From the NCBI RefSeq assembly GCF_024713975.1, contig NC_091099.1:13435501-13499500 (forward strand): a stretch of 64,000 bases of DNA. The letters run 5' to 3'. Made by a program: the position numbers and the translations under genes. Below, piece by piece: positions 10,060 through 62,700 of the stretch. Position 1 is the first letter of the stretch. Each line of letters opens with the position of its first letter. This stretch comes from Paralichthys olivaceus (lineage: Eukaryota; Chordata; Actinopteri; Pleuronectiformes; Paralichthyidae). The notes under the pieces are model-generated. The model was not told the DNA's origin, ran no database searches, and saw only the letters and a program-made list of their open reading frames with translations.

Positions 10060-10789
10060 TCTATTTGAGACAGACGCAGTACAGCCATCGTCAGTGTGTT
10101 TGCAGCAGCTGAACCACACTATATCTCCTCCTGCTTCTCCTGATGGACCACAGACCATGATGAGTCGCCTTTCGCCTGTAAGACAACGCCGTGGGTTCGA
10201 CGCCCTCCTGTCGCAGGAAGAGGAAAACGAAGTTGACGCTAGTAGCTTGTAGCTTAGCCATGAAACCCTGCCGCGGCCAAACCTAGCTCCCCAACGCTCC
10301 GCGCATTCACCTAACAGCCTATCTAGCTAATCTGCTGGAGCTGTATAACGCCACCGGGTCCGATGGTGAGCGAACTTTTGCTTCCACGTGGTTTTATCTT
10401 TGAGTTTGGAGACATTATTTGCGCGCTAGCATGTTGCTAAGCTAGGTTGCCAACCCTATAGCTTGGCCCCTTTATAGCCACTTCGCTAACTGACACGGCT
10501 AACGTAAACATCAATACAACTCGTGTTGCCCAGCCTCACGGTTCAGAGTCGTGTCAGTTTAATGTCAAATCACTTGTTCTGTCTTTGGAGGTTTATGTTT
10601 TTCTTCTACAATGTATCCACGGCTCATATTCGCAACGATTAGCTTGCCATGCTAGCTGGAGCTGGCGTTTTGACGTCAGCCAGCTGCTAAGCGGGTGTCT
10701 GACAGAAAGTAGAGCAGGGACGGGTTTTAAAGAGTGCAGTAGAAGCTAACCGTGCGTGTTTTTCTGCAGGTTTGTGAGACTGTTCAGCC
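10060..10789 (+). promoter_or_regulatory. znf592: znf592 promoter region and 5' noncoding exon
   Basis: The sequence becomes CpG-richer than its surroundings. A good donor (gtgagcg) lies at 10366. The matching acceptor (tttctgcag) ends at 10769, 20 bases before the znf592 ATG. This suggests a noncoding first exon ending at 10365 that is spliced to the coding exon. The transcription start is not determined. Confidence 0.55.
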
Positions 10790-13700
10790 ATGGGTGACAT
10801 GAAAACCCCCGATTTTGACGATCTCTTGGCCGCCTTTGACATCCCAGATGCCACAGGGTTGGATGCCAAAGAGCCCATCCAGGGGAGTCATGAGGAGACG
10901 GACAGTCAGCTGAAGCACACGGGGATATGTCTGGATGACGGCTTGTTGAGCAACCAGGCGGCCACAACATCAGACATACCTGTTGTGAGTGTTATTGTGA
11001 AAAACACAAGTCGCCAGGAGTCGCTGGAAGATTTTGGTGAAAGGCTTCACTCAGGATCCGCACTGCAAAACGGATTCAGGGGACAAGGGACCTCAATTGA
11101 CCCTGTTCAAATAACCAACTCTGGCTTCTCCAAAGCATTAGCCTCCGCCCTGAATGGGGAAAGTTCAAGAGAGTTTATCGGGAGGGCGCCTGTTCAGGCC
11201 AAACCTGATCGAAGAGCAATATTTTCAGAGTCACTTTCTAATTTTAGCCCCATTTCCAGTCCTGAGTCTGAAGACGCTAAGAGTAGTCGAGATGAAATGC
11301 ATCCTAAACAGGAGAGACCCTGTTTCCCAGAGGCTCCAGTGTTGGTGGAGCCTTCAGTGCCAGACATTGGAAAAAGTTTGGACCTCAGCATGTTTGATGA
11401 CTGTCCAAAGGACTCTGATATTCCCAAGAACACTCAAAGGAGCGGAGCGGATGGTAGTAGGAGTGAGGAGCCGTCTGACATCTCCGGCAGCAACGAAATT
11501 GAATTAACACCTAGAGTACACAGTGCACTTCCCCCGTCAAGCTGTAACCAGAACTTTATTGAGACCAACTGCAATTCAGGAACCACGATGGATGTTCCCA
11601 ACTGTTATTCTCTTGCTAAATCTCATACATCTAAGTTGTCCTCTTGCCTGGAGGCTTTGGTTGCCCTGAATGCTAGAAAAGATCCCAGCGAGCCGACGAA
11701 TCCCAGAGAGACACTGTCAGCTCACAATGACTGCATGAAAGCCAACCCCAAGGTACCCATCTCCCCACGGAGCCCCAGAAGTCCACTAGAAGCTGTGAAA
11801 CGTTTAATGAAACCCCCCGATAGCCCTGTTAGCATCTGCAGTGATAGCAGTGGCAAAGCATCTCCTGCAGTGGCATCTGGGTCACCCCCTTTAATACCCA
11901 GGGTCAGAATTAAGACCATCAAAACCACAACTGGACAAATCAAGCGCACGGTGACCAGTGTGCTGCCTGATTCAGAAACAGATGAAGTTCATTCTACTTA
12001 TGAATCCTCTCCATCTCAGAGCATGATTAGTGAGGACTCTTACTGTAACATGTCTCCTCATCAGAGTGCGGCTGCTGATGTTGGAATACAGAATAAAAGC
12101 TCCACGACTAGTGCATCTTCACCAAAAGTTTTATACAAGAAATCCGAAGCAAACTCCAGAAGGTCAGGCACAACACAGTCTACGACAGCATTTCATAATA
12201 CTGGCAGTCCTGTCAAAAGATCTGGTGCACATCAGGGGCAGAAACCAAAGAGAGTGTCAGCCACAACAGGCCAAACAACCAGCACAAACTTCCTTCCCAA
12301 AGCGATGCACTTAGCTAGTTTGAACCTGGTCCCTCACAGCGTTGCTGCTTCAGTAGCTGCCCGCTCCACCTCTCACCAACAAAGCCAACACACACTCTCC
12401 TCCACCGTGTACAGCACTGTCCCGCTGGTGCATCAGGTCAAAACAGCCAACCCCTACCCTCGCACATCCATTCCTAACACAGCAGCAGGAACCTTAAACA
12501 GACTGTTGAACAATGCCAACCCTGTGCCTACGTACATGCCCAACCTAAACCCCCCCCCCGAGAGCAATATCAACCTACCGCCACGCGGGTACTGCTGCCT
12601 CGAGTGCGGCGACTCCTTCGGGGTGGAGAGGAGTCTTGCGTTTCACTACGGCAGGAGGAGCGTTCACATTGAAGTAGGATGTACGCACTGTGCAAAGACG
12701 ATGGTGTTCTTCAACAAGTGTGCCTTGCTGGCACATGCCCGGGAGCACAAAAACAACGGCATGGTGATGCAGTGCACGCAGCTCCATATGAAACCCATAG
12801 CAGAGGAACAAATGTTTGCACCCCTGAGCACCGAACCTGTAAATGCCGACTCGTACGCCTCGCCGTCACCCTCAGCTAAGAGCCAAGCTGTTCTGCCCTT
12901 ATATCCAGAAAACGTCATCCGCCACAGACTCCGATGCTTGGAGTGCAACAAGCAGTTACCTGACTACAAAGCACTTGCAGGACATTACCAGAGACCGTCA
13001 GAAGATGTGGAAGAACTAGTGAGTCTCAGCAAAATATTTAATGCATAAGTTTTTATGTATTTTCCAATTCATACTCTTCTCTCTTGTTTTCTTCTTTAAC
13101 ACAGATATGTAAGGTGTGTTCAATGCTGCTACCCAACAAGTGTAGCTTCAGAGCTCACCAACGCATCCATGCACACAAATCCCCTTACTGTTGTCCTGAG
13201 TGTGGCGCCCTGAGTCGCTCTGCAGACATACAGAAGCACGTCAAGGAAAACTGTCTGCACTACGCACGCAAGGCTTGGTACAAGTAAGTTTCCAAGCATG
13301 AAATGCTTTATTAAAAAGTCTCAGCCACGTACAATACAGTGTTACAGAAATGTCCTAATTTTTCCCCAGATGTCTTCACTGTGATATGGTTTTCAAGACC
13401 TTTCAAGGACAAAAGGCTCACATCGAAGAGAAACACTGCGCTGTCTTTTACAAGTGCTCCATGTGTCCGGTTGCCTTAAAGACGTCTGACAGCTGTGAAG
13501 TGCATTTGAAAAATAAACACGGCGCTAGCAAATCAACTCCTCAGTAAGTTTACAACACATAAAGAGTGACTGTAAAAAGAGAAATGGCACATTTTGTTTT
13601 ACAGTTTGTTTTAATGGTTTTCTCTTTGGTCTGCAGGTTAATCTTTAAGTGTTCTTGTGAGACCATCTTCAAGAAAAAGCAGTCACTGTTTCAGCATTTT

Positions 13701-16278
13701 CATCAGAACGCTCACAAGCGTGTCACCTGTGTGTTCAAGTGTCCAGAATGCAACTCAGTCTTTCCACAAAAGCAGTTATTAATGCAACACTTCAAGGTTT
13801 GTTTCTTTGTACACTATAGTTCAGATATGTTAATTGGTTCAGCTAATTTAGTTTTCTGTATTCACATGAAAATTGTACATTGAAACTGTGCATCAAAGTG
13901 ACATTTAACTGAGTCTTTGGATGAATGATTATTTTGCAAAGCTCAGCTACTGAATATATTGTTAACATATGTATTTTCTGTTTTGCAGAGTGAGCACATT
14001 GGGAACACGACAGCAGAGACAGAAAAGAACAGCAGACAGGGCGCCCAACAACAGAAGAGTCACAATCCCGTCAAACCCTCAGAGAGTCCCAGAAAAAAGG
14101 CTGAGCAAGACAGCAGACCCCGTGTGAAGCCCACTGGCTGGACGTGTGGGAAGTGTCTCCAGTGGTTCCCCGAGAGAGAATCATATGTTTCTCATGCGAA
14201 GACCAAACACGGCAAGGTAGGGGGATCATGCATTTTATATTATATAATATATAAAGAGGTCCAGTGACAAATGAGACCTCCTATCTTCAAATTAAACATT
14301 AAACTGGAATGGCACTGAGTAGATACCTCCTCTAGTAAAGAGTTATCCACACAGACAACAATCGTTCCATCAGCAGACAGACAACAGATCGTGGGATAAA
14401 ATACCTCCCGTCTAGTCTGAAGAATGTTGGTTGGGAGATATAAAATACATAAAGCAATGAATTCTGCATTTTCCCTCTGAAAACCGTATCAAAATAAACC
14501 ACCCCAATAGTGTGAGTGGTATTTCTGGTTCCTGATTTAAAGTGGTGAACTCTGAGGTTTTCCACCCCAGTTGATTTGGCAACACCTGGTAATGGAAAAT
14601 GCAGTTTGATACCACAGCTCACAGCATTCTGGGGGACAGCAAAGCAAACTGTCATCATGTTTTAATCAAGAAATCAGAAAAGAATTGGCCTTTTTCTAGT
14701 GTTCTGTTAACAACCTCCATCTTTTTATGAGTCTAACTGAAAGGAAGTAGCTACTTGAAGGTGTGTCCTCTAGCTCTTCATCCAGTGACCCACAGTGGCT
14801 TCACTTCTTCTTACTCCTTTACTTCCTGCAATATTTCAAACGGCAGGAAATGAGCATTGACTTGTTTTGAAGAGCGATAAATGCTAAAATTGTGTTTCGC
14901 TACTTAAATGCTTTTAAAGGGAAGCTGCTGCAATAGGAAATGCTCAGTTTGCACCGTCAGCAACTTGATACATTTTCTCCTAAAATGTTGCCACAGACAC
15001 ATATTGTCAAAATATAAAAGTATTTCCATGGTCTCAGTCTACATTTTGTTAGCTCATGCGGTGATACATCCTTGCCTCCTTGACGTCTGCCACCGACCAG
15101 CCACTCTCCTTTCAGCAGTGCGGCATGTATGTGCTGAAAGGAGAGATGACTTCAGTGAGCCCTGCTGCAGAGGTCAGAGTAGGTGCTGATAGACTGGATG
15201 GATGCTGCCAGTCCATGAGATGAGCTGCTGATGTCTTGACTTCTGTTGGGAATTTCAAATTATACCTAAAAGTTATGCCAAAGTTTTCCCTTGTTGCGCA
15301 TTCTCAGCCACCTCATTTGTTTTTAACTTTTTTTAAATGATTTCTCCTTTGACAGGCGGTGAAGAAGTATCCATGTAGACACTGTGAGCAGTCCTTCAAC
15401 TCCCCAACCAGTCTAAGGAGACACATTCGCAATGACCACGATGGAAAAAAGAAAAATTACACTTGTTGGTAAGATTGTTATATTTGGACATGAACTAATC
15501 AGTGTTGTCTCAAATAGCTTATGACCAATCTGCCTTTTTTAATTAGGTATTGTACGGACACAAAGAAAATATTCACCTCAAGTGTGATGTTGAAGAACCA
15601 CATCAGTCTAATGCACGGAATCAAAAATCCTGATCTTGGCTTGATGCCGAAAACAGCCACCCAGGAGTCCAAAAAGGCTTTGGGCAAGAAGGTACAAAAC
15701 AAAATGAAAAAACTTACAAACACAAATGGTATTGATGATTTTTTTAAGTGTGTGACCTCTGTGACTTTCAGGGACTTGTGTCAGAAAGACCAGCTGTCGG
15801 CAAACAAGGGAAGCAGGATCTCACGGGGAGTCTCGAGGCTCCGTCAGCGAAGCGTCTGAAAACTCAGTTCCGCTGTTCAAAGTGTGGTTTCATCACAGGC
15901 GACAGTACACAGTTCCAGCAACATATACCTCAGCATAAAACTGATGAAAACACTCCCCAGTGCCTTCACTGTGGCCTGTGTTTCACATCTGTGCTGTCTC
16001 TCAACAGACATCTTTTTATTGTACACAAAGTCAAAGACCCAGGAGAAGAGGGGATGGAGGAACGAAAAGAGAAGGAGGTGGAGGTTAGGCAGAAGGAGCA
16101 GGATAATCAGCCAGTCAGATCTGCAGAGACTGATGAGGTAAATCATTTGTTACCACAGCTACATGAAATCGAACCGTCACAGGTAGAAGAGCCAGCGAGT
16201 CTGCACTTTGACAGGACCACGGACTGTAATTTAAAACTGAGCGCTCACTCTCACGCGCCAACAGTCTCTCTGCGGTAA
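10790..16278 (+). CDS. znf592: Zinc finger protein 592, complete
   Basis: Nuclear C2H2 zinc-finger protein of the ZNF592/ZNF687 family, whose mammalian members join chromatin-associated Z3-type complexes with ZMYND8. Exons: 10790-13018, 13105-13283, 13370-13543, 13637-13796, 13989-14216, 15356-15468, 15547-15691 and 15772-16278. Total 3735 bases, 1244 residues; human ZNF592 is 1267. The family-defining start [20 protein letters not shown] is present. [41 protein letters not shown] and [12 protein letters not shown] match ZNF592 rather than ZNF687. The large first exon encodes the Ser/Pro-rich region and the first fingers ([11 protein letters not shown]). Later exons carry further C2H2 fingers, including [26 protein letters not shown] and [14 protein letters not shown]. 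The C-terminus after the last finger is acidic and shorter than in human. Confidence 0.96.
14301..14660. repeat. Interspersed-repeat fragment in a znf592 intron
   Basis: The motif 'aaactggaatggcactgagt' starting at 14301 matches the start of the repeat at 54045-54630 and a copy at 25214. The remainder of this 1.1 kb intron has no coding signal. How far the repeat continues beyond about 14345 is uncertain. Confidence 0.35.
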
Positions 16279-18299: not shown

Positions 18300-18867
18300 A
18301 TGACAGGCAATGTGACCAGAATCTGCAGAGCAGGACTCCTGTCTTCTTTCATCCTCATCTCTCACTTTGCCATGACATCTTCAATGACTTTTGATTTGAC
18401 TGAGCTGAGAAATAAAGTTTCAAAGATCAAGATGAATCCCAGGAGCAATCTGTGGGCAATGGGTAAGAGAAAAAACCATATAATATATAATCATATATTT
18501 GATATTCCTAATGTGTACTTTTAATGGTTTTCATTGAGATTGTGTGTTTTGATCACTAAGGGCATTTCATGGGAAAGAAAAGTGTTGCGGATGGTTCTTT
18601 TATGGAGTCGGCTTTTGAAGATGTAAATGTTCCAGCTGATGTCAGAGCTGCCAGTCCTCTGCACACAGTGGAAGACCTGCAGGCGCTGATCATTCAGATG
18701 CTGGAAACTGCTCTGCACACTAGAGAGAAACAGACTCTGAAACGTTCGTTCATTTTTATTATTAATATTATTTTTACTGTTATTGCTATTACTGTCATCA
18801 ACTTTACAACTTACTGTCTTTTTTTATTATTTTAGAGTTGGAGGAGACCCTGCCTGAGGAGCACTAA
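18300..18867 (+). CDS. nmb: Prepro-neuromedin B, complete
   Basis: Secreted bombesin-family neuropeptide precursor acting through Gq-coupled NMB receptors. Exons 18300-18462, 18561-18743 and 18836-18867 give 378 bases, 125 residues. The start ATG is followed by a hydrophobic signal segment (GLLSSFILISHFA). The mature peptide reads SNLWAMGHFM and is followed by GKK, the amidation glycine plus dibasic cleavage site. The preceding SKIKMNPR resembles the human SKIRVHSR context. The first intron falls in the Gly codon inside the peptide, between NLWAM and GHFM. The C-terminal propeptide ends LEETLPEEH and is poorly conserved, as usual. The NLWA...GHFM core with the SKI- context fits NMB rather than GRP, and pairing with znf592 matches human 15q25. 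A polyadenylation signal lies at 18992-18997. Confidence 0.93.
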
Positions 18868-19457: not shown

Positions 19458-22400
19458 ATGCCGCTGATCGTGATGTGCGGGTTCCCCTGCAGCGGGAAAA
19501 CACGACGGGCAGAGGAGCTGAAGGTTCACTTCGAACACAGCTCGAAACTCAAGGTTCACATTGTGGGAGACGAAGCTCTGGGTGTTGACAAAAACTGTGT
19601 TTACGCAGGCAAGTGAATCCAACTTCCTGTAGCCATCTGGTGTATCGTTGAGTTTCTGTGACTCTGTCCACCAAAGCCTTCACGTTTTTAATTCAACTGA
19701 AGCATCTTAGTCTAAACGGAAGCTAGTTCAACTGGTGGAAGAGCAACTTTGGGATTAGTTGGTTAAACGACCTGTTGTCAAAGTAGATTCATCTCTGTAG
19801 TGATGTTAGGTTTCCCGACGACTGACTATAATACATCCTGACGACATAGACAGAGATGGAGTGCATGTGTTCATTGAGAAGCTGGGCAGCATTAAATTCG
19901 TGTTATTTTGAATAGGGTTTGGTGTGAAGTGTCCCCATCATTGGGCTTTGATGCAGGATCCAACTCTTATCACTGATCAGGATTAGATTTGAGATATTCT
20001 CCCTTCATAACAAAAGTGTAATATATGTCAGTAACAGTGTCCTACATGACTTAGTGTTAGTGTATGGGGTTATTCAATCAGCTGTTTCCATCTTTTTAAA
20101 ATATTCCTTCAGTCTGATACATTTTATCATCAAAACATTTCAACTTTTCGGTTCCAGTTGAAGTTGAACTGTTAGTCTTTCCATACAGTCTGTTACAGGC
20201 TGAATGAAAGGGTCTCAGTATATAATATATATCACTTCACGTTCTGAATCAGGGTTTCTTTCGGATTTCTGCAGCAACTTAACCTTGTTGTGTTTGTCCC
20301 AGATTCCCAAAAGGAGAAAAATGTCCGAGCCTCTCTGAAAGCTGAAGTAGAGAGGTGAGTCTCAGACAGAGGATCCATCACTGATGTTTTGCTGTCACTG
20401 CCACTTTTTAACATTCGATATTTTTTTGTTGTTTAGAAAAGTCAACAAGGACGACGTTGTCATTTTGGACTCATTAAATTACATAAAAGGTAAATCATAC
20501 GATCAGTAGTTTGCTTTTTAATCCCTGTGATTTATCTGTGCTTTCACATTTAAAACTGAAATACCTTCCAGGCTACCGCTATGAGCTGTTCTGTCTCATC
20601 AAACACACACAGACACCACAGTGCCTGGTGAGTGTACTAGAAATATCACTATCTGAATGAAGTCTAGCTGAATATTTGAAGTCAAAGCCTTTATGCTCTC
20701 TCTTATTGAAGGTTTACTGCTTGACTTCAGATGAACAGAGCTCGTCGTGGAATAACAGTCGAGATGCTGCTGAGCAGTACACACAGGACATGTGAGTGAG
20801 AGACCTCTGCACATACAGAGTGGGTACATGTCCATCTGTCACGTAGGGTTACAAATGTCTTCATGCTCTTTTATCTTTTTTTATATTTCGTCTCCTCTAG
20901 CTTTGACGCGTTAGTTCTTCGATTTGAAGCTCCAGACTCCAGAAACCGATGGGACAGTCCTCTCTTCTCCATCCTAAAAGACGATACGCTTCCGTTTGAA
21001 GCCATCTCCGACGCACTTTTCAAAAGAAAAGCACCCCCACCTAACCAGTCTACGCAGAGTGTAAGGGACACCCATGCTTTTTCTTTAACACACATGCAGA
21101 TTAATTTCCTGCCATTCTACCGTTTTGACTGCCTGCCTGAATATTTCCTTGTCTCTTCACAGCAACCGCTGTCGTCTGCAAACTTCTTGTACGAGTTGGA
21201 CAAGACCACACAAGACGTCTTAATGGTATGTTTTAATTAAGTTCTTTTTTGGGTTGTTTGTCCATTTATCAGTCTCTTAGGTTTCTTTCTAGTTGTCTAT
21301 TGTTTTTGCTTTTCCCATTTTGTTTTGAGGAGTAGGGCCAGGCAGGATAAAATATGGAGGAAGATTTTTTTTTTAACTTTTAGTTTTTTTCATGCCTGGC
21401 CCTGATACTCGTCTTTGCAGTGTTTTGCATCATATTTCCAGATCGACAAAGTGAGATTTGAAAATACTTGTGTACTCAGTGTGGGCTTTTCAGTGCATAG
21501 AAAATGAATGCAGGTACTATTACTCACTGGTCTGATGGCATGAACCCTTATAGGTTGTATCTTTCCAATGTCCACTGTCCACCCCATAATAAAGAAATTC
21601 ATTCAATGCTTTTCCATTGCATTCAGTGGTGCATGTCCTCCCTCTGCACATGCTGACGTCAAGGCTACTACGTAAATGTTGTGTGTTTGTGTCTCCTGTT
21701 GTGTGAACACCTCTGTCCCTGTAATTATGTATCCATCTATTGACATCTGTGATGTCATGTGGCTGTTAATGGCTTTCAGACAATAAGAAATTAGCTGCTC
21801 TGTCAGCTTGATTTTCTATTGAGTCCAGCAGTAAGTTCCCTGAAATAGTTTTGTTCATTTTAGCATTTTCTTTACATGGACCGAAAGGTTTTTCTTCAAA
21901 CACTAGTATTTTACACACATTTGCTGTTAATTAAATGAATAAGACAAAAAGTTCGGACTCAGTTTGCACTATTGGACTCCCAACAGTCCAAAGCCTCGGG
22001 GAAGTTGTATTTCTCAGTAGGAACATTCACTTCTGTATTTAGTGTGTTTAATAAAGGTCATTTTCAAATTTTCAGGCAATTTTTAACGCACAGAAGACAA
22101 GTGTTCCCGGGGATCTCATATCAGTTCCAGGAGCTACAGAAAAGATATCCTTTCTCACATGAATACATTGTTATTTAAAACTCAATTTTCTTGTCCCATT
22201 ATGCAGCTTGTTTGGTGGATACTTTTTCATGTTTGAATCCCTGCGTGACGTCACGCGTCCAGGTAGCAGTGATCTGTCACGGCTAATGACCTGTGACTCA
22301 TTTCCATTATCTGCCTCCCTAAAGGAAGTCATTCCCTCACCAGTGGGAGGAAAAGCACTCTATATCAAATGACCTGTCTGGGGATGATGGATGAATGCAT

Positions 22401-22906
22401 GTCCATCAAAGAGCTCAGAAGAAAGCTGCCAATCACTGTTAAAGGTCTTGGCTGTACTAAAATACTGTGTGTGCGTGTGTGTGTGCGTGTGTGTGTGTGG
22501 TGCGTGCGTGTGTGTGTTTGGTGGAGAGAAACCAAATTACATTAGTTGATTTTTATTGGCAGCTGATGTTCGTCACACTGTCTCAATAGCAAACACCTTT
22601 TCTCCTTTTAAAGGCGTTGATCAAGAGCAGAAACCACCTTTCACATTCCGCACTTTGTACTGTGTAGTTTGTGTTCCTCCTCTCGATACTGTTGTGGGGG
22701 AGGATTTTCTGTCTTCATGTGAGAACAGCTTGTACTCAAACGTCCTTAACCTGATGACAAACATCGAGCTCACCAGGGGCATCAACATGGCGGAGCTGCG
22801 GAAACTACGGCGCCAGTTCATCAGCTACACCAAGATGCACCCGACAGAGAACACGGGACAAATCTCCAACATGTTTGTGCAGTATTTAAATAAGAGCATT
22901 CACTGA
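19458..22906 (+). CDS. kti12: KTI12 homologue (Elongator-associated, tRNA-modification factor), complete
   Basis: KTI12 is a P-loop protein that binds tRNA and the Elongator complex, needed for wobble-uridine modification. Exons: 19458-19608, 20303-20354, 20437-20489, 20572-20627, 20712-20791, 20901-21060, 21163-21225, 22076-22144 and 22763-22906. Total 828 bases, 275 residues. Human KTI12 (about 354) has extra residues before the segment corresponding to FDALVLRFEAPDSRNRWDSP. The start MPLIVMCGFPCSGKT contains the Walker A motif GFPCSGKT. Family blocks are DDVVILDSLNYIKGYRYEL, FEAPDSRNRWDSPLF, APPPNQSTQSQPLSS and LRKLRRQFISYTKMHP. Two introns are non-canonical: intron 1 is GC-AG and intron 8 is AT-AC. 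Human KTI12 is a single-exon gene, so the fish gene keeps a multi-exon structure. Confidence 0.95.
19609..20302 (+). other. kti12: GC-AG intron 1 of kti12
   Basis: The exon ends in cag and the intron begins gcaagt, the optimal GC-AG donor. Splicing to the acceptor ending at 20302 gives VYADSQKEKN, matching the human VYGDSAREK. The nearest GT donor, five bases downstream, puts the next exon out of frame. Confidence 0.85.
21334..21403. repeat. Inverted repeat in kti12 intron 7
   Basis: The 11-base arm 'agggccaggca' (21334-21344) has its exact reverse complement at 21393-21403, separated by an AT-rich 48-base loop with a T-run. It may be a tiny MITE or chance. No target duplication was found. 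Confidence 0.45.
22145..22762 (+). other. kti12: U12-type AT-AC intron 8 of kti12
   Basis: The intron starts ATATCCTTTC, matching the U12 donor consensus ATATCCTTT. It contains TCCTTAAC at 22743-22750, matching the U12 branch site, and ends in AC 12 bases after that site. Joining AAG to ATCGAGCTC gives ATEKIELTRGINMAEL, which aligns with human TTEHLRFTRPLTMAEL. No GT-AG pair keeps this alignment. Confidence 0.93.
22468..22518. repeat. (GT)n-rich microsatellite
   Basis: Imperfect GT run with GC interruptions, inside the U12 intron of kti12. Confidence 0.85.
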
Positions 22907-23983: not shown

Positions 23984-24820
23984 TTACCATGATCTCACAA
24001 TTTTTTTCTTCAGAGGAACGCTGGTGCCAAAGATGATGTCCCAGTGACTGAAGAAAGGAGCGTAGTTGCTGTTCGGCTTCTGGTGGTGCATGTCATGAGC
24101 CGGAGCACCACCCAGCAAACCAAAAGGCACCAGGTGGTTGAGGGTCCAGGGCAGGTCGTAGCCTATGTGGTCTTCCACGGACATCCAGATGCTGAGGACC
24201 GTGATGCACCATGTTGTCAGCGGGTGACACTTTAAAGCAAGAGGGTCCTGGTTGCTCCACAGTCCCACAGTCATCAGCTCTGGGATGCTGAGCTGCTCGG
24301 TCGACCAGGAGAAGGGCGCAGCATATTCGTGGTGGATGGCGTGGATCCAACGATAAAGCTGTGGATGCTTGTGATGTATGAAGTGCCAAATGTAGTACTG
24401 CGTGTCAAAGACGAGTAGCACAGCCAGTCCATCAATGAAAACCTCACACAGAGTAGGAGCCTCATGTGGCAGTGTTGGTGCAGGCAATATGAACATGCCG
24501 ATTATTACAGATGGAATAACAAAGAAGATGTGGTTATACAGCGCCTTGCAGAAGCTCTTCACCATCATCCCCACTGTTGGCTGCCTGTCTGGTTGGATCT
24601 TGTACTGATACATGCAAGGCACCTTTTCTCCCAGCAGGTCCAGCAAAGCAAAAGGTATACTGAAGAAGAAATAACTGGAAAAAGCAAGTAAGACTGGGAA
24701 AAAAGGAGATGAAATGAGAGGCAGGTGGTGAAAAAGCAAATAATCCCAGAAAGGCTGCAGAAGCCTGTCTGAGGGTCTCAGGGGAAGGGGCTGCAGAGGC
24801 AGCACACTGATGTTCAGCAT
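23984..24820 (-). CDS. ch25hl: Cholesterol 25-hydroxylase-like protein (copy 1), complete
   Basis: Membrane di-iron enzyme of the fatty-acid hydroxylase superfamily. CH25H makes 25-hydroxycholesterol in the ER, but the substrate of this paralogue is inferred. Single exon, 278 residues, as usual for the intronless CH25H family (human about 272). N-terminal hydrophobic segments (FPVLLAFSSYFFFSIPFALL, NHIFFVIPSVIIGMFILP) precede the three histidine clusters HFIHH, HAIHH and HDMHH that bind iron. SVEDHIGYDLPW and FFSHWDIIFGT match the family. It shares the KIQP and HHQKPN segments with the second copy on the opposite strand at 32928-33761. Which zebrafish ch25hl member it matches is not decided. 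Confidence 0.93.
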   Translation of the reverse strand: MLNISVLPLQPLPLRPSDRLLQPFWDYLLFHHLPLISSPFFPVLLAFSSYFFFSIPFALLDLLGEKVPCMYQYKIQPDRQPTVGMMVKSFCKALYNHIFFVIPSVIIGMFILPAPTLPHEAPTLCEVFIDGLAVLLVFDTQYYIWHFIHHKHPQLYRWIHAIHHEYAAPFSWSTEQLSIPELMTVGLWSNQDPLALKCHPLTTWCITVLSIWMSVEDHIGYDLPWTLNHLVPFGLLGGAPAHDMHHQKPNSNYAPFFSHWDIIFGTSVPLKKKIVRSW

Positions 24821-24846
24821 CTTGGTGCAAGTAGAACGAACACTAC

Positions 24847-24869
24847 CGCTGCTGCTGCTGCTGCTGCTG
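24847..24869. repeat. (GCT)n trinucleotide run upstream of the hydroxylase ATG
   Basis: About seven GCT units lie just upstream of the minus-strand start codon, probably in the 5' UTR as CAG repeats. Confidence 0.8.
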
Positions 24870-25213
24870 AAAGTCTCATGATCGCCACAAAGTTCTGCCT
24901 TTATACAGTAGAGTCCAACAGAAGAGGCTTTGCTCTCATTTGGAGCAGATCAGCACTTTTCCCCCTCCTGGCAGCTCAATGTTGACATGCAGACCTTCAA
25001 AAGAAGATTAGCAAAAGCATTCAAGCACAAGCATTAGACACAACAAATTGATAAGCTTGAGACTCATGATATCAACCAGTACAGATGCATAGGACAAAGG
25101 GCAAAAAAACTTTTTGTAAAAGGGAAATATGGACACACTTCCACAATTCTCAGCTTTCTTATCCGAGTAGCACAATCGATTCTTATTTCGTTGAAGATAC
25201 ATTTCTCATTTTA

Positions 25214-29700: not shown

Positions 29701-30428
29701 TTTGTTTTTCTGTGCTACTTCACAATCTCACTGAGGCTGCTGTGAGTGCTACATTTGTCTAAGTATTACATAATAAACATAGCTCGAAGGTCATGGAAGA
29801 GCTGAGATAGGAGGAAGAAGAAACTATGTACCCAGTCTGGATCAGTGGCCTCCACAGTCATCCTGTAAAAGGTTACTTTGCCATCACTTCGTTCCTGAAT
29901 AATCAGCTGATCTTTGGGAAAACGCTTCTTCAGCTGCTTGATCTCTGTCTCACGTAGCTGCTCTGCCACGTCCTCAGTCAGGTCACACAGCTTGACCTCC
30001 TGGAAGATGCCGGGACGGGGCACTGGTTGCATCCTCTGAGCGGGTCTAATCTGATCGCCAGAAACAGGCAGGTCATCCACTGAGGGGAGCTGCGGTGGAT
30101 GCCAGAAGCGACATCTGTCCTCCATGGTGCAGTGGCCGGAGAGAAAGTAGCGGCAGGGGCGGCGGCCTGCGGCTAGGGGACCAGCAATGGACTTGTTAGC
30201 GTGACAAGGCCTGGGCCCCACATTTCCACCAGGGTCCTGGTGGACATCTGGCTTGTTGGGTGTCCTGTTAGTTTTCTTCTCGTGAGCACTGGTGTCATCT
30301 CTTACATGCAGAAATTTACATCTGTTGCCAAAACTACAGTGCCTGCCTTGAGAGAAGAAGCGGCACAGCGGCTGGGTGCGATGAACTGGTTCTGATTCAG
30401 GTGCATTTCCTTCCTCACCGCTCTCCAT
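26788..30428 (-). CDS. CCCH / RWD-like / CHY zinc-finger protein, complete
   Basis: I do not recognise a named gene. Exons, in gene order: 30428-29832, 29468-29409, 29322-29270, 29182-29038, 28923-28541, 28433-28205, 28091-27977, 27870-27759, 27669-27558, 27102-26990 and 26857-26788. Total 1989 bases, 662 residues. Two CCCH fingers (C-x8-C-x5-C-x3-H at LCRFFSQGRHC and C-x7-C-x5-C-x3-H at PCRYFLSGHC) open the protein. A segment with MVSFPDSYPQE, then paired CxxC motifs (VCLQCNRC, AAQCEKC, CEHC), follow. The C-terminus holds a CHY finger: GACKHYKQSHRWLRFPCCG, YPCDVCHDED, MICGYCAKEQ. The SYPQE segment fits an RWD-like fold. CHY fingers also occur in RCHY1/PIRH2, but no RING is present here. RNA binding by the CCCH pair is inference. 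ATG 30428 is preferred because an acceptor lies 12 bases upstream. Confidence 0.88.
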
Positions 30429-31049
30429 TGTTACAAAAACCTGAATAAGAGAATACAGTGACACTGATTATTGAAATGCAATTACTTCTTCTGTTTATAC
30501 ACAAACACTAAGGAGCATTGTTGTGTTTAAATAGGCAAGAATCACCCCAAAATACCCCTAAAATGCAGGAAAAAACTCTCAATCCTTTAAGCTCTTTAAG
30601 ATGAACTCATGTGGACATGAGTTGTGAACAGAGCGAATATGAATATCTAATTTGAAGGATCTGAAGAGAACCTAGGAAAAAGAAAGTCTGCATTATTTCA
30701 CAAAAACCAAACAAAGGAAAGGGTGAATGTTGTTCAACAGGAGGATCTGGTGACCCCCTGAAGTTTATTATTAAGACCCCAGATAAGAAATCAAACTGCT
30801 GCATTAACATCTCCTCCAGCTGATATAAGCACAGGGACTAAGCCAAGTAAAAACACATCTGAGGGGGGCCATGAACAAGGGTGTCCACATACCTTTGGCC
30901 ATGTAGCCTGTAAGCATAACATAATAGCAGTCAAACATTAGCTGCCTACTTAGCTAGCTAAACTTTACTAACAGTTGTCCAGGGGAACGATCTTAGCTCT
31001 GTTGTCACTTCATTCAAATCACTGATCATTAGTTATTGTTGAAAGAAAT

Positions 31050-31350: not shown

Positions 31351-32927
31351 TCAGAGCCAAAGGCCGGTCTTCGCTTTCCTCGGGTGGGAAGTGTGAAAAC
31401 GAAAAAAGACCTTCATCGCCCTCTACAGTCTGGAGGGTCACTCTACACTTAGAACATTGAACTCAGCAGCTGAGAAAAGAGTCTCCTGTCTTATCCACAG
31501 ACTGTAAATAAAAAGTTTCTTATCACACAATCTTTATTAGCAGGTGGAGTTTGCCTAGTCATACATGTTCAAAAGGTCCAAAGTCCCTTCCTGACCTGTG
31601 AAAACAATTACACAAGAAAGAATACACAACTATTCTAACAATATTTTCACATAAATGTAAATTAATGTTACTAAAAATTCCACTAATTTGGGGGCATGTG
31701 ATTTGAATTTTCAGATGACTTTTGGAACTATGAGGTCTTTTGACTTGAAATGATGAGTTGATTGAACAGCTGAGAATTCTCTAAAAATGACTTAGGTTGA
31801 CAATTCAACCTAAATTTACTCAACTCACACTTTTCATTTTCTTAAAAAGCTATATTTATGAGCTGTTCAAACTCAAACTGATCTACATTGCAGCTGGCCT
31901 AGCCCTTGTGTTCACAAGATCATTATAATGCTCAGAAAAAAGATATATTTGAATTCCATAATGAAAAATAACTGGGCAAACTCCATTTACTGTTAAAGGT
32001 CGTGTGATGTGATCTGAGAGAAGTAGTAGAACAGCCATTGAATGGACCAAGATAGCTGTCACAACACATCCTTCCTCTTTTGCAGAGTAAGACATCAGTA
32101 GGAGCCTGTTAATCTGCTGAGATGATAAATTTCAAAAATGAAAATGATGCAAAATGAAGCGGTTTTACTTCCTCATAAATTCATGAATCACTTTATCCAT
32201 GTAATTCTTCATATTTTACATATTTTACATGAATATTATCCAAATTGTGACACATTAAAAAGGACATACTAGGTCCATCCATACTGCATCACTATAACTG
32301 CTCACTTGCGTAAACCTAACCTGTATTTGCATCCCTTTGTCTTTTTATATCACACTTCAGTATGTATTAATGTTTATTATATTATAATATATATTATATG
32401 TTCTAAACCTGACCCGTATTCATAATCCCATGTCCTTTTATACAATACTGCAGTTTATGTTCCTTAAATAATTTTATATAATCATGTATATATAATTTCT
32501 ATCATTATAAGTGTGGCTTGTATACTTTGTGTCTCCTCCTCCAAAATATCCCTGTCTCCTTTTTACTTTCTCATTCTTGGTTGGTCTTTATGTCTTTTAA
32601 TGACCAAGTGAACTACACACTCATTTCAGTGTGTTTGTACTTGTGTAAATGGAAAATAAAGTCACCTGAACTTGAACATGAACCGAAATATAGCTCTGAC
32701 AGAAAGTTTGAGCAAAGTAGAATTACTCATCCTGAACAATTTATCATGTGTTGAGGGGGTATGAATAATTTGTTTCACTGAGCCGCCACTTGACACCACA
32801 CAGTGAGCAAAGCACAAGCAGACACTCATTGTATAAAGTCTCTATCATAGTCGCTGTTTCTGGCTCAAACATCTACATCTCCATCCCACAGACAGTAAAG
32901 GATCCACCTTGTGATTTCTACTTCAGG
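31351..32927. other. AT-rich gap upstream of the second hydroxylase gene
   Basis: No gene is supported. The stretch includes AT-rich tracts with simple-sequence character around 32380-32480. It should carry the promoter of the downstream hydroxylase gene. An acceptor-like site (ctacttcag) ends immediately before its ATG, suggesting a noncoding upstream exon somewhere here. Confidence 0.45.
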
Positions 32928-33761
32928 ATGAATTATATGGATGTCAATGCAGATCTCTGGATGAGCTGCTTGGGAAACGACTCTTTGCTGCAGCCTGTGT
33001 GGGACAGTCTGAGGCTCAACTACAGAGAATATTTGAGATCTCCACTCTTCCCCATTGTTCTGACTGTGTCTTCCTACTTTATCTTGTGCCTTCCTTATCT
33101 TGTTTGTGACTTCATGGGGGACCGGTGGGCCTGGGTCCTGCAGTTCAAGATCCAGCCCAGTCGACGGCCGACAGCCTCCACATTGCTGCACTGTGCAGGA
33201 GTCACTTTATACAACCATGTGTTCCTAGTGCTCCCAGCATCAGTGGCCCAGTGGGCATGGAGGCCACCAGTTGACCTCCCAGACCAGGCTCCGTTCCTGA
33301 TGGAGCTGATAGCTGGAGTGATCAGCAATCTCCTGCTCTTTGACTTCCAATACTTCATCTGGCACCTGCTCCACCACAGGATCCGCTGGCTGTACGTCAC
33401 TTTCCACGCCATCCACCATAATTACACATCTCCCTTTGCTCTGGCCACTCAGTGTCTTGGCGGCTGGGAGCTGGTCACGGTCGGCTTTTGGACAACCCTG
33501 AACCCTGTGATACTGCGATGCCACCTTCTCACTACATGGGCCTTCATGGTGGTGCACGTCTACGTTTCTATAGAGGATCACTGTGGCTATGATTTCCCCT
33601 GGTCGACATCACGTCTGATACCATTTGGCATTTACGGAGGGCCCAGCAAGCACGATGTGCACCACCAGAAACCAAACACCAACTTTGCTCCACACTTTAG
33701 CCACTGGGACAAAATATTTGGCACACATGCTGATGTCAGCTTCTCTTTAGCTATAAAATAA
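32928..33761 (+). CDS. ch25hl: Cholesterol 25-hydroxylase-like protein (copy 2), complete
   Basis: ER-membrane di-iron sterol hydroxylase family. The frame is open from 32790. I choose ATG 32928 (MNYMDVNADLW) because it gives 277 residues, close to copy 1 and human CH25H, and because an acceptor-like site sits just before it. The next Met, three codons on, is an alternative. Histidine clusters are HLLHH, HAIHH and HDVHH. SPFALATQ, SIEDHCGYDFPWSTSRLIPF and FSHWDKIFGT are closer to human CH25H than the same parts of copy 1. Its coding part is a single exon and lies about 8 kb from copy 1 on the other strand, with the CHY zinc-finger gene between them. An AATAAA overlaps the stop codon. Confidence 0.93.
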   Translation: MNYMDVNADLWMSCLGNDSLLQPVWDSLRLNYREYLRSPLFPIVLTVSSYFILCLPYLVCDFMGDRWAWVLQFKIQPSRRPTASTLLHCAGVTLYNHVFLVLPASVAQWAWRPPVDLPDQAPFLMELIAGVISNLLLFDFQYFIWHLLHHRIRWLYVTFHAIHHNYTSPFALATQCLGGWELVTVGFWTTLNPVILRCHLLTTWAFMVVHVYVSIEDHCGYDFPWSTSRLIPFGIYGGPSKHDVHHQKPNTNFAPHFSHWDKIFGTHADVSFSLAIK

Positions 33762-37908
<4,147 letters not shown>

Positions 37909-39633
37909 AGGAGAACACATTCAATACCATAACACTCTCTGAGAATTTACATGTCTTCAGTGAGAGCATGAAAAAACATCCCCACACTAACCGCACTAAA
38001 GTTACTCACCATACCTTGCCCATTTTTTTCCAACAACAAAAAAAAGCATTTGACCAAAGTCTAATGGTCGATGAGATGCAGAAAGCCATCTTTGTTTCTG
38101 ACGATGGCATCAGGGTGTTAATCATCATTCTTACCAAACTTTAAAGTCATCTACGGAGTAAGATATGAACAGGGTCATTTCTTCATACATTAGTTTGCAC
38201 TGTGTATGGCTTTGAAATATTTTGTATTTAAACTTGTCATGTACTTGAATGAAAGAGTGTAAAATGTCACCCTGTACTTCCACTACTACTATTACTACTG
38301 CTTCTACTACTCCTCTTATACTACTACTTTAAGTTCTAATTATGACTTCTAGTTTCACCAGCAGTATTCTATCACTCCACAGAGTCAGTGGTAAAGCATT
38401 AAACATACCTGGTGTGGGATTAGCCGATCTTTCGTTTAAGAATCAAACCATGTAATCCCTTTTGGATATTTAAAGTACTCATACTGGAGACGAGATAGAT
38501 TTGTTCCTGTTCAGTTGTTTTGTTTGTCTCTGTTCCAACAATCTCCTGGAGATAGTTATAGGATTTGATTTGCTGATTATATAGGACCTGAGAATGTAAA
38601 TAAAATGTGAGGTGAAAGTTTGAAATGAAATGTTTTCTGGCTTAAGGATTTCCCAACTTTACAATAATATATATATATATATATTTTTTAGCCATTATGA
38701 CCGAAACCCATTCATTGGCTGGTTCCTCTGAAAGAACTGGTCTGCAGACAAGGTTCAAGTTTACCATGGGCTAAACATTTATGTAACATATACGTGTAAA
38801 TATAATTGGATTCACAAGACCTTATTATATCTTTTTACCGAACATTTTGTGACCACTGAATAAACACTGTGAGCCTTCATATGAGAAGAATATTGTGTTA
38901 AAAGGAGCTCGCTTTGGTAACTCGATAAAACTCGAGTTACTCGCAGTAACCAGACACCTGTGAACCAAAGAAAGAAGACTGCTCAGCCAAGTATAGAATA
39001 GTGCTCAAGTGCATTTCAGCTCCTTCGGACTGTTGTCGTTTGGTCCAATAGTACACTTCAAGAATAGTACTCCACAGTAATTTGACCATTAGAGAGAAAA
39101 AAATTGTGATGAGAGGCCTTAACATAATAACTTAATAAATGACAATGTTGGTGGTGCCTAAAATAATTAAAAACAGAATTAGTAAGACAAATAAATGCTC
39201 ATGCATAAACAAATGTTCTTTTTAGCTTTTTGAAACAAAACATTACACATAGGAATTATATACAAGATACAACATTCAGCCAAAAAGGTAGGGCTTAAAA
39301 TTTAAACAATTCAATTGACCCTATTTGAATGAACATAACGCAGTGCTACATATCAGTTTCAACCAGCTGTCTGGATTTTGAGGAGCGGTAAACACAACTG
39401 GCATTGGTATGTAAAGTTATATGAGTATGTGCCACAGCAATAAATAACTCTCCATTCTACAACCTTAGAGACAGTACACACTTTTAAATGATTATGATTG
39501 CATAGGTCTGTGTTAATTGCTGTCAGACAATCCTAAACCATAAGGTGACTTTAAAGAGTGGCACTTTTACTAGACGTTTTTAGCTGATGAAGTGTAGTTG
39601 TTATTAAGTCTTACATATGACTGTCAGGTGAAC
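37909..39633. other. Overlapping 3' regions of tspan3 and pstpip1
   Basis: The tspan3 3' UTR runs rightward with candidate signals AATAAA at 38599-38604 and 38859-38864. The left part of the pstpip1 3' UTR lies on the other strand. TAC-rich simple sequence sits near 38280-38330 and an AT run near 38666-38685. No further coding frame is supported. Confidence 0.6.
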
Positions 39634-59700: not shown

Positions 59701-62700
59701 TGTTTGATTAACATTGTATCATAAGGCATACTGCTATTAACCAATCCCTAGTTGTAATGGTGCTCTATGCTTGTTTTGTAAGTGCTTAGAAAAAACAAAC
59801 TATGTTATCAAGCAATACAGGCATTGATTGCAGAGGGTGAAGCATTTGTTTAATGCTATTTGTTGTCTCTCTCACTCTTCGGCCATAGAATCAGTTGAGG
59901 TGTAGATGAAAGTGTCAGTTAAAGACTGCTGAAGCATGGGTTCAATATGTGCACTGCTCTGTAATCGGATGCGGCAGGAAATGGATATTGATCATGATGG
60001 AGGTCCGTTGCCCAATGCAATTCCAGGCTATCTCTGAATGGAGAGTGCTGGGGGGAGGGAGACACTTTCCTTAGACCATTGAACTTTCTTTAACAGGCAG
60101 CACAGTAGAAGCTGCTCAGACTGGATTTAATTAAGCTGAAAATCCTACCTGTTGAAATTAAGGACTTCACTCAGTAGGTTCACATTTGCTTGTTTTCATT
60201 CATGATGTTTGTATGTGTCATTTTCAGCGGTCCTCCACCGTCATTGGCTGCAGCCCGGTTCTCCCACACAGGCCTCAGCTGGGCAGACCGAGTGAAGTGC
60301 ACTCAGTTCGTCCCCAACTCCAGTCAAACGACCTCATCTCTAGCAGAAAAACCCGGTAAGAAATTCTGCTCAGACTTACCCCACACAAACGTGGTTTGTT
60401 TTTAAAATGTAATCAAAATGTTTGCAGTATAACAATTAACATAAAATACAATACAAGTCCACAATGCCCAGGTCTGAAACAAGGAGAGACAAGGGCAAAT
60501 GTCCTAAAGGTAGTCCAAACAGTCCAGAATAACTAAATATGGAGAAAGTGGAACCTGTCCCTTCCTTTAGGGGTACAGGTCGATCAAAACAAGAATAGAT
60601 AAATAAAGACGAAAAAAATGTTTGATGGGAAAACTGACAGAATATCAGTCATTATATGTTTATAGAAAACACATATAGGTGCAAAATAGGAGCAATATAC
60701 ATGTACATAACTTCACATAACTTAGTTTTAAAAATTGTGTTTTCTTTACCTAACCATCTTGGTAACATGGTGGCGAAGTACATTTCCAATCTAGTAATAT
60801 TAGCTCTTTAGATGCAAACTTGCCTGTTTTGAGAGGCTGTCTGGTATCTGCAATCTGGTTGATTATCAATTCTGTATTCTGTATTGTATCTCTATTGAAT
60901 GAATCTATATTAGGATTTAATGGAGCAGCTCTGTGCATGGTTTCTTTCAAAACAGAGCACACAGTAACATATCTTTCTCTGCTTTATCGATTGAGTGCTT
61001 CATGTGTTTTCCAGGTAAAAAGGATGCTGAGGGCTGGGAGACTGTCCAGCGAGGACGCACTGCTAGGCCTCGCTCTGCTGCCATAGTTGCCAAGGTCAGT
61101 CCTGTCTTGGCTCAAGTCACCCCAAAAGAGGACAGTGCCAAGGACAACAAGCCACACCTGCCGCCGCAGCAAGAGCAGCAGCTCCAACCTCACTGTCCCT
61201 TGGACAATGACTCGACTAAGACGGACATTGAGCAGCGAGTCCCTGCAGATCCTGACCCCCCGGGGAGCGTTGGAGGTCCGGAAAATGGGCACACGATGGA
61301 GGTACTGAGGTTCAGTACATTGTGACGTCTTTCTCTCTGAGCAGTCCCTGGGTATCAATTATTCACGAGGAGCTGGGTAACAGTAGACCGTTTTATCAGC
61401 CACATTTGTTTTTGTTTTGGGCTCCATGGTATTCATAGACACTGTCCAGACAGACATATCAGTTTTAAGGCGATTGATTGTACACTGACATTTTAGAGGC
61501 AGAAAACCAATTTTCGCTCTCATTTTATAGTCTGTCAATGCCTCGAGACACACTTGGTAAGACTGTGTTATAGCAAACGGTTAATTTTGAAAAGCAAATC
61601 AGTGTTTCTTATCTATCTACTGAAATTGATCATAATTGGATGTACAGGGCATGTTAGTACCAGCTTCCCTGCATGATTTGTGTTACCAGCTGTGTGTTGA
61701 CTGGTCTGATTGTTGTTTTTTTGCCACTGCTCTCATGAATTGCTTGAAATATGCATGTTTTTAATTGAGTTTGCGTGTTTTTGTGTGTGACTGTCGGTGC
61801 AGCCCCCAGCAGAGAGTGTACAAGACTTGGGGCAATGTGTCGACGCACCCTGTGAGGACTCGCCTCCCTCCATAGCAGCACATACCCCTTCCCATGCCCC
61901 AGAGCCCGCCCTGTCCTCAGCCACAGTCCCACCAACAGATCTTACCTTATCAGTCCCGGTCCCCTCCCTGGCCCGCTGCTCTTCCCCAGATCCACCCCAG
62001 ACGGACGGGCTCGATGCGCTGTTGGTCTTGCGGGACAGCCTGGCTGAGGGGGGTGCGTCACGGGGCATGGTCACATCTGCTCCAGGACAGGCCGAGACTC
62101 CCATGGCAGCGGTGAAACTGGAGAGTGTGCTGGACCCCACAGAGCTTTCTACTGTGAGTGCTGAGAGATGGAGGAGCAGAGGGAGGGGAGGGCGGGAGGC
62201 CAGGGATTCCCCAAGGGTCCTTCACCGCCTAAACAAAGTCAATCTTAAGAAACTGCCAGACCAAATGTGCAGGCAGACTGCATAGCTCTGTGCAGTGTTG
62301 TTACAGCACCATTCACTGAAGAAAAGCTGTGTGTAGGTGGCTTTTGTAGTTGAGCAAGTGCTCCCCTGGTGTTGCCCCAAAAAAATAAGCTCTCAATTTG
62401 TTTTTAGTTATTTTGGCTTTTAGAATTCTATGCAAAAATATGCTGCTAAATGTAGTCTGAATTTCCAGTTTTTGTTCAACCCAGTTTGGAATCATTGGTA
62501 AACATCTTCTGGCTATATCAGCCACTATTGTTTTGCATTGTATAGTGAGTATAAACAGAGCTTCATTCAGTTAATCAAAGATAGCTACACCTCTAAGTTA
62601 GATACTGTCAGTGTCCTGCAGAAAACACTTCAGCTCAAATCCACAGCAAAGGTTATGACATCAAGTTTTTTCCACAGGATACATTTACACACCTCATCTA

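Follow-up and report, generated by a model that had tools for sequence, protein, structure and literature searches.

The last of the eight introns of kti12 in Paralichthys olivaceus, at 22145-22762 of the 64,000-nucleotide stretch of DNA analyzed here (the window), is predicted to be a U12-type AT-AC intron in a gene that probably occupies its original vertebrate locus; reading the splice signals from the genomic letters, we give this interpretation a probability of about 95%. The class of intron is already known, and kti12 intron 8 is one more, well-supported example of it, which may already be listed in an intron database.

Predicted splice sites of intron 8 in the kti12 gene

The kti12 coding model extends from 19458 to 22906 on the forward strand and comprises nine exons, with 275 codons and a stop. 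Exons 1-5 are located at 19458-19608, 20303-20354, 20437-20489, 20572-20627, and 20712-20791, and exons 6-7 at 20901-21060 and 21163-21225. Exon 8 (AIFNAQ...GATEK) was placed by the gene model at 22076-22144, and the last coding exon, exon 9 (IELTRG...NKSIH stop), by the gene model and tblastn at 22763-22906. Kti12 acts in the Elongator pathway of tRNA modification. In a profile search, residues 1-271 of the 275-amino-acid product aligned with positions 1-271 of the 271-position Pfam KTI12 profile (PF08433) at 336.8 bits (cut-off 22), a full-length match that identifies it as a member of the KTI12 family. A PDB search with the product returned three sequences: two L-seryl-tRNA(Sec) kinases and 6qp0, which is titled a putative chromatin binding protein and which we take to be fungal Kti12. 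None of the three alignments spans the exon 8/9 junction. Searches for relatives in viral and prokaryotic contig collections gave 4 and 16 pattern hits, respectively, none of which was confirmed by tblastn, and Rfam gave no match at the gathering score over the whole window.

Six of the eight kti12 introns have GT-AG ends, intron 1 has GC-AG ends, and intron 8 has AT-AC ends. The donor of intron 1 (19609-20302) reads CAG/GCAAGT; inspected by eye, a GT four bases further on would break the frame. Intron 8 is 618 nt long, lies in phase 0, and begins with ATATCCTTTC, its AT being at 22145-22146. The 5′ splice site, ATATCCTTT at 22145-22153 on the forward strand, agrees with the U12 consensus RTATCCTTT at all nine positions and has a C at +5. 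The branch site, GTCCTTAAC at 22742-22750 (forward strand), deviates from TTCCTTRAY at one of nine positions, the first base being G where the consensus has T; within it, TCCTTAAC occupies 22743-22750. The last A of the branch motif, at 22749, is 13 nt ahead of the last intron base, and the intron terminates with the AC at 22761-22762 on the same strand. Fit to both consensus strings was measured by counting mismatches; the intron classes themselves are described in PMC7367187. The start of the intron, the branch string, and the terminal AC had each been given in an earlier note on this DNA, and the letters and coordinates proved exact.

Removal of 22145-22762 joins ATEK to IELTRG in phase 0; a nearer AC, at 22757-22758, is absent from the acceptors that are in frame with the donor at 22145. 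The earlier note had described this junction as aligning perfectly with human KTI12. When a provisional human C-terminal sequence was aligned, the frame was preserved and the alignment was gapless across the junction, with one gap beyond it, but identity within TEK/IELTRG is limited to T, E, T, and R. A tblastn alignment with the model protein extends to 22153, past the end of exon 8 at 22144, and so tblastn by itself does not fix the exon 8 edge. The pyrimidine fraction at -20 to -4 of intron 8 is 0.59, as against 0.47-0.82 in the other kti12 introns; pyrimidine content ahead of the 3′ end therefore does not distinguish it from them. A TG repeat lies inside the intron at 22466-22517.

Intron 8 combines the following marks of an AT-AC U12-type intron: the 5′ site, a branch site near the 3′ end, terminal AT and AC, and in-frame joining of the exons. 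It shares its 5′ site, its branch site, the placement of the latter near the 3′ end, and its AC end with the U12-type AT-AC vertebrate introns of U12DB and IAOD, from which it shows no difference in kind. Table 2 of PMC7367187 puts the AT-AC share of U12-type introns at 22% in zebrafish, 12% in each of two puffers, and 26% in human, the range across the tabulated vertebrates being 12-26% with the exception of Xenopus tropicalis (8%). On these tabulated values, AT-AC introns form an uncommon part of the U12 class but not a rare one, which tempers their description in the earlier note as a small minority of minor introns. The intron set used in a zebrafish zrsr2 study, U12-type by context, numbers 662, and kti12 is not mentioned in the main text of that study (PMC9501576). 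In the main texts of one open-licence library, no paper that links KTI12 with the minor spliceosome or U12 was found.

Position of the motifs in the gene and in the window

The two U12 motifs were sought in the other seven kti12 introns. Their 5′ sites have 2-7 mismatches to RTATCCTTT, compared with none in intron 8, and six of the seven have at least three mismatches at the branch site. The remaining one, intron 6, contains the branch-like string TTCCTTGTC with a single mismatch, together with a 5′ site that has six; the branch motif alone thus cannot single out intron 8. In none of the seven do a U12 5′ site and a branch site occur together.

Across both strands of the window RTATCCTTT occurs once, at 22145, where shuffles give an expectation of 1.19, and TCCTTRAC-N5-20-AC occurs three times, where 3.39 are expected. 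At least one exact motif pair, either AT-AC or GT-AG in type and separated by 60-5000 nt, was present in 35 of 300 shuffled windows, with a mean of 0.13. A motif pair taken without regard to position is therefore not rare in 64 kb. When one mismatch per site was allowed, the window contained 37 candidate 5′ sites, six of them (22145 included) having a branch partner no more than 5 kb away, and among those six only 22145 has an exact 5′ site. The other five U12-like 5′ sites with one mismatch and a one-mismatch partner within that distance begin at 38827, 51784, and 52109 on the forward strand and at 62682 and 62656 on the reverse strand, and chance pairs of this kind are expected.

The sole exact RTATCCTTT of the window sits where the exon 8 frame has to end. 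When the shuffle rates are applied to 31 bases at either exon edge and multiplied, the result is approximately 2e-7, a figure that assumes independence and a zone width of our choosing. The U12 reading is convincing because the motifs are located at the exon edges, and not because the pair is rare.

Alternatives to minor-class splicing

It is improbable that intron 8 is often kept in the mRNA and a shorter Kti12 made. Partial retention of minor introns occurs in many genes, and the frame of exon 9 is open upstream as far as 22550. However, read by eye from the exon 8 side, the retained intron encodes ISFLT and then an in-frame TGA at 22160-22162 on the forward strand, at intron codon 6, so that the product would be without its last 47 residues; such an early stop is still compatible with partial retention beside normal splicing. 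Because intron 8 is the last coding intron, a retaining message may escape nonsense-mediated decay. The earlier note had regarded retention with an open frame as evidence against its claim; the retained frame instead closes at this TGA.

A second alternative, that a conventional GT-AG or GC-AG intron spans the region and the AT-AC signals are coincidental, is very unlikely. Junctions were listed by pairing donors in 22077-22739 with acceptors whose last base falls in 22500-22799, with a spacing of no less than 60 nt and the frame open to the stop; the listing covers junctions that join exon 8 directly to exon 9. It contains 79 in-frame junctions, 29 of them GT-AG or GC-AG and 50 AT-AC by dinucleotide alone (22145-22762 among the latter), and a conventional intron is to that extent available. 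Every GT-AG or GC-AG donor precedes 22145, however, and each would thereby lose exon 8 residues, and, scored with a simple table of U2 donor frequencies, the five donors of these 29 junctions range from -3.7 to -11.6. Pfam scoring covered eight of the 79 junctions, of which 22145-22762 scored highest at 336.8 bits, whereas the three GT-AG/GC-AG junctions scored (3 of the 29) gave 316.2, 318.2, and 322.4 bits, 14-21 bits lower. With these scores and the sequence marks described above, the U12-type AT-AC identity proposed in the earlier note is upheld as a prediction of splicing. Among the five AT-AC junctions scored, the four others gave 335.5, 334.9, 330.6, and 327.2 bits. The two that come within 2 bits of the best, 22159-22773 (335.5) and 22147-22758 (334.9), are not separated from it by the profile, only by their ill-fitting 5′ sites.

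Least credible of all is excision of the AT-AC intron by the major (U2) spliceosome: such introns exist, for example SCN4A intron 21, but the U2-type AT-AC introns of sodium channel genes described in PMC2831892 carry a G at +5, where intron 8 has a C, and intron 8 in addition matches the U12 5′ site in full and the branch consensus at all but one position.

If intron 8 is U12-type, the U11/U12 particle would recognize ATATCCTTT and TCCTTAAC. In the minor splicing pathway U6atac takes the place of U11 at the 5′ site; it would then replace U11 at the intron 8 5′ site, and cuts at 22145 and 22762 would join the two exons in frame. From these signals we infer that intron 8 is excised by minor-class snRNPs, in which case minor-snRNP activity could limit Kti12 output in this animal.

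The kti12 locus and the single-exon human gene

Upstream of kti12 are a ZNF592-like zinc-finger frame (10778-13048) and a C2H2 zinc-finger frame (15748-16278), which probably belong to one znf592-like gene. They are followed, directly upstream of kti12, by a neuromedin B/bombesin-like peptide gene at 18300-18867, which has three exons and encodes 125 amino acids (Pfam Bombesin, 29.5 bits). The window also contains, on opposite strands, two long frames that run without interruption and encode a fatty acid hydroxylase domain (23984-24949, reverse; 32769-33761, forward), which presumably represent genes resembling those for cholesterol 25-hydroxylase, and a reverse-strand frame at 29766-30467 with two CCCH zinc fingers.

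A Xenopus tropicalis gene block described in PMC8233351 has the order ZNF592-SEC11A-bombesin-KTI12. ZNF592 (or a ZNF592-like gene), bombesin/neuromedin B, and kti12 are together both in that block and in the window, which is most simply read as retention of the ancestral KTI12 gene in both fish and frog. Human KTI12 is a single-exon gene within the second intron of TXNDC12 (PMC3192792) and is termed a retrogene in a review (PMC5408686). These accounts suggest that a reverse-transcribed copy within TXNDC12 superseded the original gene in the human lineage, and that all KTI12 introns, the minor one included, were shed in this way.

CCDC16 (ZNF830) offers a parallel (PMC2831892). Its U12-type intron was lost by retroposition in early mammals, a process held responsible in that paper for three of eight vertebrate losses, and, of the three retropositions of the gene, two took place in fish lineages. 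As with KTI12, the human gene is intronless, and a relative that has introns (for CCDC16, Drosophila CG11839) carries an AT-AC minor intron. The two cases differ in the repeated retroposition of CCDC16; the fish-like kti12 keeps its introns, and human KTI12, with its single exon, is located within TXNDC12.

The earlier note had tied KTI12 expression to the minor spliceosome. Because human KTI12 has a single exon (PMC3192792), that dependence would apply to the fish gene and not to the human one: the fish-like kti12 appears to be minor-spliceosome dependent, and the human gene cannot be. As a tentative and rather doubtful generalization, Kti12 may depend on the minor spliceosome in fish, and probably also wherever else among vertebrates the ancestral locus was kept, the human lineage having been freed by a single-exon retrocopy that replaced its parent. 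If so, fish minor-spliceosome mutants would show a wobble-uridine modification defect, and human patients would not show one through KTI12. A Kti12 effect that people lack could then be present in zebrafish models of minor-spliceosome disease.
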